From: Granulicella rosea
Lineage (GTDB): Bacteria; Acidobacteriota; Terriglobia; Terriglobales; Acidobacteriaceae
Assembly: GCF_900188085.1 (NCBI RefSeq)
Contig: NZ_FZOU01000001.1
Location: forward strand, 1 to 64,000
Reading direction: 5' to 3'
Length of the DNA: 64,000 nt
Shown here: piece by piece, positions 53,188-55,074 of the stretch
How the letters are laid out: every line of letters starts with the position of its first letter
Numbering within the stretch: position 1 is the stretch's first letter
The notes under the pieces: model-generated
Told to the model about the DNA's origin: nothing
The model's input: only the letters and a program-made list of their open reading frames with translations
Databases searched by the model: none
Position numbers and translations under genes: made by a program

Positions 53188-53214
53188 CTTTGCCGTTCGT
53201 AGCCATCGATGCCG

Positions 53215-53241
53215 GTCATCCTGAGCAGAGCGAAGGACCCC
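53215..53241. repeat. GTCATCCTGAGCAGAGCG single arm
   Basis: GTCATCCTGAGCAGAGCG and AAGGACCCC, one arm of the GTCATCCTGAGCG family without its inverse. The remaining 130 bases before the possible small gene hold no other feature I recognise. Confidence 0.7.
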
Positions 53242-53378
53242 TGTATTGGCTTTTGTCGTTGCCTGTTCTCACTCCGAATTTTCAATCAATCATGCAATAC
53301 TGAAGCCGCCGACTCACAGGCTAGACGCTCAACGGGCACCACGAGGACAGAAAAGTTTCGCCCTGAAAAGCGAAACGC

Positions 53379-53402
53379 CTCGGGGTAGCAGCCCCGAGGC
53401 GA
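53379..53402 (+). promoter_or_regulatory. GC-rich stem-loop in front of a possible small gene
   Basis: CGCCTCGGGG and CCCCGAGGCG pair perfectly around TAGCAG. 12 bases later comes AAGGAGGTG, the Shine-Dalgarno of the 35-codon gene. This hairpin is short enough to affect ribosome access or RNA stability. Confidence 0.6.
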
Positions 53403-53426
53403 TCCTGTGAGAAGGAGGTGCGGCCC

Positions 53427-53534
53427 ATGGGACTTGTCAAAGTCAAATGGGGGAAGTGCAGTCTTGAATTCCCAGGAGAGATTCTTCTCTTCCTGATACT
53501 CAAGATCTTCCAAGCAATTCACCTGGACGCGTAA
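53427..53534 (+). CDS. Possible 35-residue membrane-associated peptide
   Basis: ATG at 53427 is preceded by AAGGAGGTG with about 6 bases of spacing, a near-perfect Shine-Dalgarno. The N-terminal half is basic (MGLVKVKWGKCSLEF), then EILLFLILKIFQAIHLDA is a hydrophobic stretch long enough to insert in a membrane. One cysteine at position 11. The unit has a stem-loop before and a hairpin after. It is too small for ordinary gene finding, so existence is inferred from the ribosome-binding site and composition; a type I toxin-like or signalling peptide is possible but not shown. Confidence 0.5.
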   Translation: MGLVKVKWGKCSLEFPGEILLFLILKIFQAIHLDA

Positions 53535-53549
53535 ACGTTCCGTACACCC

Positions 53550-53575
53550 TTGGATGGTTCCAGCCGTCCAAGGGC
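53550..53575 (+). terminator. Possible terminator after the small gene
   Basis: CCCTTGGAtgg and ccgTCCAAGGG form an 8-bp stem with extra pairing, followed by CTTATTCCT. It begins about 15 bp after the TAA. T run is weak. Confidence 0.5.
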
Positions 53576-53664
53576 TTATTCCTCATCGGCGCCGACGTTC
53601 CGGTTCGGCACTTATTAGAAGAATAATCCAACTCTTGGATTCTTGAGGAGAAAATCGCTGTCGA

Positions 53665-55074
53665 TCAGCCTTGCGCCCCCATCTGCCGCCCCGACCGAAA
53701 CGCCACCATCGCCAGCACACCCACCGCGACCACCAGCGCGACCCAAAGCAGATCGGGATGCCGGTCTGTAAAAGGCCGGTCATCCGGGCGCGGCGCGTAG
53801 AGCGGATTCGCGATCTCCGGCCCCAGCGTCGCCACGCGGACCGCGGCCGTCGGCGTGAAGAAGCGGGCATAGTCGTACACGGGCGCGCGCAGGCCAGGGT
53901 CGCCGTAGAACAGCGCCGGAGGCTCTGCCGGGGCGTCGAAGCACAGCTTCCGCTCTCTCATCTCCAGCATCACCGAAGCGATCTGCAAGGGCCGGTCATT
54001 CCCATCCTCGACCGCGACCACGACACTCGCCCCGGTCTGCATATTCGCACCCAGCGTCGCCGGTACAGTCAGTTGCAGCTCATGGATCGGCCTGCCCGCG
54101 CGCACCATGTCGACGCGGCTGATCTCTCCCGCCAACTCCTCTTCCACCGGCCGACGCCCTGCGTCCGGCACGCCATCCGGCCGCGCCGACACCCGCACCG
54201 CGCGGCTGAAGTTCGCCTTGAATCCCGGCTCCAGCACAAACCGCACCCGCTCCACCGGCACGTGCGCCGGAAGACGAAAGGTCGCCACCTCCTCCTGTCC
54301 GGCGCTCGGGCCCACCGACGGCGCCGCCGAGGCAATCTCGGTATATAAGGTCTGCGCCTCGCGGCTCGGCGGAATCTCCGCGCCCTGCACCATCGCGGCT
54401 GTCACGGGCAGCGAGGCCCCAGCCGCGGGCGTCATCGTCAGCTCTACATGCAGGTACCGAAAGGTCGACTCCTGCAACGCAATCGTCGTCGACCGGGAAA
54501 GCCGCTGGCCCGTCAGGTCGAAGAGCGTGAACTCCCCCAGTTCGGTCGCCGGCCCGGCCGGCGCGGCGCTGCCCGAGACCTTCGCCGTCGCGAGAAAGTC
54601 CTTCGCGTCCAAGTCGAGGTCAACCTCGGTGTAGGGCCGCTCCGGCATCTCGAGGTCGAAGACGACATGCCCGCCACGCATCCCCAGATTCAACACCCGC
54701 GCCGACTCGCTGCCCGGCGCGCTCGCCTGGCTCAGCGTCTCGGCATAGGGCACCTCCTGCCCGGCGGCGTAGAGCCGCAGATCGGTCAGCGACGGCGCCG
54801 CGTGCGCGAAGACCTGCGGGGTCAGCAGTGCGCAGGCCGCCGGCCCGGCGCCGGGGGCGATCTTTACCGGCGATTCGTAGCGGAAGTAGCGTGGCTCGGC
54901 GGCGGGTGCGGCGGGCTTCGACTGAGCGAAGGCGATTGGCGTCAGCAGCAAAGACAGAAGCAGATTCCCTGCGGGAATGACAAACAAAAGAAGAGGCGAC
55001 GGCAAAGGCAAATACAGGGGTCCTTCACTGCGTTCAGGATGACGGGCGTTCTTGCGGGCATGAAGAAAGTTCAA
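53665..55074 (-). CDS. DUF3999 family exported protein
   Basis: About 469 residues. The start is a TTG at 55074 that overlaps the DUF2339 stop (TTGA); GGAGGG lies 6 bases before it. Its first 50 residues contain HARKNARHPERSEGPL and FVIPAGNLLLSLLLTPIAFAQ, encoded by a GTCATCCTGAACG repeat and an ATTCCCGCAGGGAAT repeat. The latter supplies the signal peptide. The mature β-sandwich part includes YFRYESPVKIAPG and LRLYAAGQEVPYAE, and a C-terminal membrane span (LLWVALVVAVGVLAMVAF). Together with DUF2339 it forms a pair of unknown function. Confidence 0.8.
   Translation of the reverse strand: MNFLHARKNARHPERSEGPLYLPLPSPLLLFVIPAGNLLLSLLLTPIAFAQSKPAAPAAEPRYFRYESPVKIAPGAGPAACALLTPQVFAHAAPSLTDLRLYAAGQEVPYAETLSQASAPGSESARVLNLGMRGGHVVFDLEMPERPYTEVDLDLDAKDFLATAKVSGSAAPAGPATELGEFTLFDLTGQRLSRSTTIALQESTFRYLHVELTMTPAAGASLPVTAAMVQGAEIPPSREAQTLYTEIASAAPSVGPSAGQEEVATFRLPAHVPVERVRFVLEPGFKANFSRAVRVSARPDGVPDAGRRPVEEELAGEISRVDMVRAGRPIHELQLTVPATLGANMQTGASVVVAVEDGNDRPLQIASVMLEMRERKLCFDAPAEPPALFYGDPGLRAPVYDYARFFTPTAAVRVATLGPEIANPLYAPRPDDRPFTDRHPDLLWVALVVAVGVLAMVAFRSGRQMGAQG

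Follow-up and report, generated by a model that had tools for sequence, protein, structure and literature searches.

A tiny gene in Granulicella rosea and its scattered Acidobacteriaceae family of putative membrane micropeptides with folded leaders

Some mRNAs for small membrane proteins are reported to control their own translation through 5′ structure. The timP mRNA is described as having a conserved structure that sequesters the Shine-Dalgarno (SD) sequence, together with a covarying pseudoknot that is essential for translation (PMC11228461), and a 5′ pseudoknot in the tisB mRNA is described as required for binding of 30S and S1 (PMC7708055). According to a 2025 paper, type I systems were found only in Proteobacteria, Firmicutes and Tenericutes before a cyanobacterial case (PMC12390103). 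We analysed the first 64,000 nucleotides of contig NZ_FZOU01000001.1 of Granulicella rosea (hereafter the window), where a reading frame of 35 codons behind ftsK is preceded by a folded leader with three helices (P1, P2 and P3). This tiny gene looks real, and is a member of a scattered, multi-copy Acidobacteriaceae family with folded leaders. The best reading, by analogy, is an undescribed small membrane protein family that resembles type I toxins. The leader is predicted to hide the SD in most copies, though not clearly in the window copy.

The gene family and its reading frame

An earlier note on the window, made from its letters alone, had proposed a small expressed gene and advised a search of relatives. 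Covariance-model, peptide-profile and pattern searches yielded 33 units with an intact open reading frame (ORF) in 14 genomes, with 1-4 units per genome; 32 are additional to the window copy, and further copies from the covariance model share its layout. All 33 accepted units came from family f1 or from records named Terriglobus, within genomes that were sampled by the models and searches and not exhaustively. Copies without an ORF were excluded from the count, and the association of leader with peptide is therefore partly due to selection; three units found via the peptide (L179, L204 and L189) nevertheless carry leader-like hairpins.

The peptides of the 33 units were 31-44 amino acids (aa) long. 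A membrane-like stretch (15 residues with a mean hydropathy of at least 1.6) was present in 31 of them, including that of the window copy, and a positively charged N-flank in 27. The ratio of nonsynonymous to synonymous change (pN/pS) was below 1 in 12 of 12 pairs (range 0.22-0.89), which were hand-picked, with some units used in more than one pair. The pooled ratio was about 0.50 in frame, compared to 0.91 and 1.78 in the other forward frames and 0.90, 0.59 and 1.47 in the reverse frames. The synonymous bias that the earlier note had suggested looking for was thus found across the family, as in-frame purifying selection. By eye, the peptides fell into type A (V-R/K-V-K-W-G-K..P-G-E, then the hydrophobic stretch), type B (L-G-x-A-K-A-x-G-S-V) and type C, an assignment by which G031c fits no type well and G184c fits C poorly. 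Start codons besides ATG included CTG, TTG and an inferred ATT: units G313a (L055), G313b and G313c (both L054) and G250a (L025) have CTG, TTG, ATT and CTG, respectively, where most have ATG, and these are possibly weak starts.

Two alternatives give the peptide a lesser role. In a dispersed mobile-like repeat, such as a repetitive extragenic palindrome (REP)-like element or a terminator pair, the ORF would be incidental; the scattered positions, the lack of a leader at the ftsK end in 29 of 29 congeners examined, the leader-only and truncated copies (G003a and G000c) and the terminator-like reverse strand of P3 are in its favour. This explanation is very improbable given the family-wide in-frame purifying selection, the SD-preceded peptide of 31-44 aa in 33 units (copies without a peptide were not counted as intact) and the link of P1 pairing to the SD region. 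Alternatively, the transcript could be a dual-function or chiefly regulatory RNA with a secondary peptide, since conservation is greater in the leader than in the peptide: two copies within a genome have 85% DNA identity across query nucleotides 1-97 and 43% peptide identity; the pN/pS below 1 in all chosen pairs speaks against it, and we consider it quite improbable. The earlier note had also considered a pure RNA element, with hairpins kept and the frame not; hairpins and frame were both conserved.

The 33 units comprise 26 from the R1 search, three from a scan for an 18-base core, and L163, L179, L204 and L189. The R1 covariance model, built on four leaders, matched in 19 of 298 order genomes (E-value (E) ≤ 1). 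It gave 39 matches, 29 of which were extracted, the other 10 being weak or on the reverse strand; three of the 29 stand outside the 33, namely G282a (chance), G003a (leader only) and G000c (ORF truncated). R2 matched in 11 of 399 genomes of the class and R3 in 8 of 396 genomes of the phylum (E ≤ 0.1); the accepted matches were in family f1 only, and two in family f6 were undecided. The core scan, with one genome per species (84,980 species), returned 50 loci. On 14 of these lay 15 leader matches at E < 1e-6, in records named Terriglobus, Granulicella or Acidobacteria, two of them in Terriglobus roseus DSM 18391; core loci with weaker leader matches (best L116 and L091) were judged on their printed flanks only. 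R3 added L163, a first peptide-profile search added L179 (12 matches, four of them units and one other, L172, inspected), and a second added L204 and L189 (20 matches, eight of them units and the remaining 12 outside the count). Within the genome of the window, a DNA search recovered one truncated copy and a further unit whose peptide has 36 aa, and the covariance model a fourth copy. The truncated copy, G000c (L045:1501-1646; G000:C7:493390-493535, minus strand), is decayed, with leader and P1 pairing intact and the ORF cut just past its start; it adjoins the end of a 496-aa ORF that is TolC-type by eye.

Weak matches in G282, G574, G568, G700, G706, G730 and G093 lacked such a peptide and were put down to chance. 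R3 alone failed to separate true from false at 31-32 bits, because G483 gave R3 matches of 31-32 bits without such a peptide. Two f6 loci of the same class (L181:1501-1606 and L182:1501-1603, minus strand) were left out, as they lie past the stop of a longer ORF (135-142 aa) and by eye had no clear P1 and peptides without a membrane segment. They have P2- and P3-like hairpins, an SD and ORFs of 30-31 aa. Their small ORFs end in VVT(I/V)EIP plus three residues, like the N-terminal half of type A without the membrane part. Their whole-length R3 scores were 35.8 (L181) and 32 bits (L182), compared to 28.4, 24.4 and 19.9 bits for the accepted L179, L204 and L189. The exclusion is a judgement call: if both belong, the units span two families and not all peptides are membrane peptides.

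Leader helices, probable pseudoknot and SD accessibility

P1, P2 and P3 were common to the family leaders, with strong covariation. In an alignment of 24 leaders fitted to the model (A10), 97.2% of cells were paired and 21 of 24 pairs had double changes, among them all eight model P1 pairs; there were 95 double-change cells, whereas shuffles had 20.5 and slid controls 3-12. The outcome was similar with 26 model-fitted leaders (A9). In an unfitted check of P2 and P3 on a MAFFT alignment of 18 leaders (A7), 19 double-change cells were found compared to 4.5, and further pair types were not above shuffles (210 of 500 reached the observed number). An alignment-free swap test of P1 over the 33 units gave an own-partner sum of 675.5 compared to 464.1, reached by 0 of 5000 swaps. 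The own 5′ zone was the best partner in only seven units, we think because SD-like purine stretches find partners in many pyrimidine runs; the window copy scored 21 with its own zone, whereas foreign zones averaged 15.8 and reached at most 26. In the window, positions 53300-53580 folded at -122.2 kcal/mol (z = -6.3), and 0 of 200 shuffles were as good. The centroid fold includes a rival pairing of CGCT..GGGC with GCCC..AGCG, which is incompatible with P2.

The P2 loop had its main form in 19 of the 33 units and a variant in 14. Over the 14 variant-loop units, the own sum for the pseudoknot between the P1-P2 joiner and the P2 region was reached by 94 of 20000 permutations, with the P1 and P2 strands picked by eye here and in the accessibility calculations. 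Support came mainly from five variants (G313d, G085b, G257a, G184d and G186a), in each of which the matching joiner was equalled by at most 1 of 31-32 foreign joiners; G196b and G102b had no such helix of at least 4 bp, and the remaining variants were indecisive. The pseudoknot is computationally supported, less strongly than the helices.

The mean probability that the SD is unpaired was 0.19 at full length over the 33 units, 0.44 without the P1 5′ strand and 0.39 with this strand shuffled, in folding that ignored pseudoknots and assumed a start 5 nucleotides (nt) before P1. Accessibility was lower in the full form in 27 units, higher in three (G000a, which is the window copy, G184d and, slightly, G257a) and within 0.02 in three (Wilcoxon 4e-6). 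The window SD lies just 3′ of P1, and occlusion there, if any, therefore hinges on GCCGCC further 5′, which the fold of 53300-53580 pairs partly with the SD region.

Such a leader might instead sense a ligand, a protein or temperature and thereby switch on a stress protein or a small membrane regulator that is no toxin. Most paralogues have near-identical joiner motifs and P2 loops despite differing peptides, the pseudoknot is supported and the SD is occluded on family average, all of which fit a sensor. On the other side, Rfam at gathering score had no match in the window, with only weak unrelated ones at relaxed E-values for the unit and nine other loci, and the leader precedes micropeptides only in the 33 units, where the presence of a peptide was partly a counting criterion. 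Such a restriction would be uncommon among metabolite riboswitches. We consider a sensing RNA of this kind possible, though somewhat unlikely.

Promoter-like and terminator-like elements, surroundings and database searches

A hexamer matching TATAAT in at least 4 of 6 positions occurred upstream of P1 in 32 of the 33 units, compared to 29% of shuffled stretches, and such a -10-like hexamer plus TG in 14, compared to 2% (single-base shuffles, as in the flank-antitoxin and antisense -10 tests below). Downstream, 31 units had a stem of at least 8 bp within 75 nt of the stop (15% of shuffled), followed in 26 by at least three T in the next eight bases (4% of shuffled). Two apparently near-identical terminator hairpins in tandem were seen downstream of unit G313b (L054, 4730-4875). 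According to a crude ORF caller, the next gene was convergent in 21 of 31 copies, including the window copy; these 31 include G000c and G003a and exclude the four latest units. The position of the short ORF between hairpins would suit an attenuator, or a leader peptide for the next gene, but in those 21 copies, the window copy among them, no co-directional gene follows immediately, and the terminator-like hairpin past the stop in 31 of 33 units also argues against it; we regard it as extremely improbable.

The features of the window copy are listed in Table 1. What the earlier note had described there, including a near-perfect SD at good spacing, an ORF with a hydrophobic C-terminal half and a hairpin shortly past the stop, was borne out; the SD lies 8 nt before the ATG and the hairpin has 12 bp. 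Its GC stem is P3, with ten perfect pairs, and begins at 53376, three bases ahead of the 53379 given in the note. The gene-free gap also held: between the end of ftsK (53140) and the end of the next long ORF (53665, opposite strand) lie 525 bases. The unit is larger than the span first noted, with a promoter-like element, the helices P1 and P2 and a possible pseudoknot in addition; the note had not recognised a family either.

Table 1. Parts of the window copy and their positions
Feature	Position	Strand	Basis or remark
-10-like element, extended (TG-n-AATACT), inferred promoter	53293-53301	+	read from sequence
Structured leader	about 53308-53411	+	
P1 5′ strand (CTCACAGG), close to inferred transcript start	53313-53320	+	fold; partner 53404-53411
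Candidate pseudoknot 5′ strand (CGGGC), in P1-P2 joiner	53333-53337	+	GGGC with GCCC of P2 region
P2 hairpin, GTTTCGC [CCTGAAAA] GCGAAAC	53355-53376	+	fold, covariation
P3 hairpin, CGCCTCGGGG ... CCCCGAGGCG (first stem of the earlier note)	53376-53401	+	perfect, 10 bp
P1 3′ strand (CCTGTGAG), immediately 5′ of SD	53404-53411	+	fold, covariation
SD, AAGGAGG	53412-53418	+	8 nt upstream of ATG at 53427
ORF, 35 aa, MGLVKVKWGKCSLEFPGEILLFLILKIFQAIHLDA	53427-53534	+	C-terminal half hydrophobic
Terminator-like hairpin, then CTTATT	53547-53574	+	12 bp

The ftsK end was searched for in 31 genomes (the own genome and 30 congeners), and 29 congener loci were read. No leader match (E ≤ 0.01) was found at any of these 29 loci, and the unit at the ftsK end is therefore specific to the lineage of the window among those examined. 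The neighbour gene of the window lay downstream of ftsK in 23 of the 29 congeners, with a gap of at most 76 bases in 14 of the 23. A 59-nt inverted pair (53211-53269 / 54989-55047; 83% complementary), which begins GCCGGTCATCCTGAGCAGAGCGAAGGACCC, resembles a dispersed intergenic repeat. On the minus strand, P3 and P2 form two successive terminator-like sites (53401-53355). Across the family, at least five T in the eight bases following P3 on the reverse strand were present in 22 of the 33 units; this T run could end an antisense RNA, and the same bases also belong to P2. An Acido-Lenti-1 RNA match near threshold (36.1 bits, gathering 37) was seen at L059:7708-7753, about 3.3 kb from G031a.

Eight of the 33 peptides were scanned against Pfam and NCBIfam, and none came near a curated cut-off. 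PHROGs gave nothing below E = 0.27 and PADLOC nothing up to E = 1. In viral contigs, a 24-base pattern had no match and an 18-base pattern had five, with model agreement confined to those 18 bases; a hand-made type A consensus against plasmids and a type B consensus against phages had no match. Nothing on the family was found in a literature search of limited reach. Only PMC12654330 held both 'type I toxin-antitoxin' and 'Acidobacteri'; it mentions orphan toxins in Acidobacteriota, with no type named in the passage concerned. HigAB is described in a Granulicella (PMC7074687).

Interpretation and comparison with described systems

The computations support the gene family, the promoter-like element, the helices, the coding selection, the family-average SD occlusion and, more weakly, the pseudoknot; that the peptide enters the membrane or is toxic, that the leader acts as a switch and that an antitoxin exists are inferences. 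The -10-like element, the SD, the purifying selection, the terminator-like hairpin and the 32 further units support, at the sequence level, the small expressed gene that had been proposed. Our best explanation, the chances of which we judge to be evenly balanced, is a free-standing membrane-micropeptide gene whose translation is gated by the folded leader. The gene would encode a single-pass, mostly N-terminally basic membrane micropeptide and would have its own promoter, with an inferred transcript of about 270 nt and control at the level of translation. Through P1, the mRNA 5′ end would fold back onto a stretch touching or containing the SD, so that translation of the full-length transcript is predicted to be poor in most copies, and the pseudoknot, P2 and P3 would form a compact upstream platform. 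The SD would be freed once this structure opens, whether by 5′ trimming, through a ligand, through an RNA or protein acting in trans, or through a standby ribosome that depends on the pseudoknot, and a burst of peptide would then insert into the inner membrane. Type I toxins, small membrane regulators and signals, which the earlier note had listed as candidates, all still stand, and the leader anatomy favours type I toxins.

Several results weigh against this explanation. As for coding, one reverse frame has a pN/pS of 0.59, little above the in-frame 0.50, and the sole pair with the window copy (with G196a) has 0.89, the weakest selection; in addition, the peptide evolves faster than the leader, and G000c and G003a retain the leader without the ORF. 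As for occlusion, the window copy contradicts sequestration in the accessibility calculation, with its SD unpaired at 0.66 at full length compared to 0.29 when truncated, and its pseudoknot has 4 bp only. An earlier accessibility run, with another start and SD definition and 24 units, was weaker (lower in 15, within 0.02 in seven and higher in two, G000a, the window copy, and G031a). As for an antitoxin, none was found in a search that covered flanks and opposite strand, distant trans-encoded RNA not being searched for: flank-mRNA complementarity was at chance level, exceeding eight shuffles in 8 of 60 tests for an expectation of about seven, and antisense -10-like sites lay over the ORF in 3 of 33 units, compared to 15.7 in shuffles, to which codon usage may contribute. 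In 17 of 30 copies (crude ORF caller), no more than 70 nt separate the end of the upstream gene from the leader match, leaving little room for a divergent antitoxin. Finally, paralogues within a genome carry the same leader core, as would be expected of a shared regulator or ligand no less than of an antitoxin. A more speculative and unlikely proposal is a new class of pseudoknotted RNA switch, common to the paralogues of a cell, that controls varied membrane micropeptides simultaneously and needs no dedicated antitoxin RNA; the genes would then be a counterpart of type I toxins that is gated by structure and has no antitoxin.

If the gated-gene explanation is true, type-I-like micropeptide genes would extend to Acidobacteriota, a very common soil phylum. 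The leader is conserved enough for covariance searching, and P1, the pseudoknot, P2, P3 and the SD offer a handle for finding more. Two marks of type I systems can be compared directly. The first, a small hydrophobic protein of fewer than 60 aa, is present (31-44 aa; hydropathic stretch in 31 of 33). The second, an mRNA that hides its ribosome-binding site (RBS), is common though not universal in such systems; it is predicted on family average (0.19 compared to 0.44; 27 of 33), more weakly in the earlier run (15 of 24), and not for the window copy (0.66 compared to 0.29). We liken the transcript to a type I toxin mRNA and do not claim type I membership, because no antitoxin RNA was found and toxicity is by analogy only.

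In the Helicobacter pylori pair AapA1/IsoA1, the antitoxin is cis-antisense, whereas antisense -10-like sites are rarer than in shuffles in the present family. Folding of the H. pylori type I toxin mRNA is described as governing translation (PMC6733600), as proposed here. The MsoT1/MsoA1 pair of Microcystis aeruginosa is likewise a type-I-like locus beyond the classical phyla; it is cyanobacterial, with an antisense RNA antitoxin reported and tests in E. coli (PMC12390103). The likeness to timP and tisB is one of architecture; sequences were not compared. The enterobacterial timP/TimR system as described has a small inner-membrane protein, a conserved 5′ untranslated region (UTR) with several stem-loops, a sequestered SD and a covarying upstream pseudoknot (PMC11228461); counterparts of all four are predicted here, that of the sequestered SD on family average. 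The timP SD lies in its own stem-loop, whereas that of the present family lies within or next to a long-range stem formed with the 5′ end of the mRNA, and timP has the antitoxin TimR and demonstrated toxicity, whereas here no antitoxin was found and a toxin role is by analogy. With tisB/istR-1 of Escherichia coli, the family shares a structured 5′UTR, a pseudoknot, a small protein and, as predicted on family average, a sequestered RBS; the tisB mRNA is described as active only once 5′-processed, with an upstream standby site and induction by DNA damage (PMC7708055), whereas the present family is likened to it by architecture alone. Given these parallels, a convergence of unrelated toxin mRNAs on pseudoknot-gated translation becomes testable, for example in the sequenced strain Terriglobus roseus DSM 18391.
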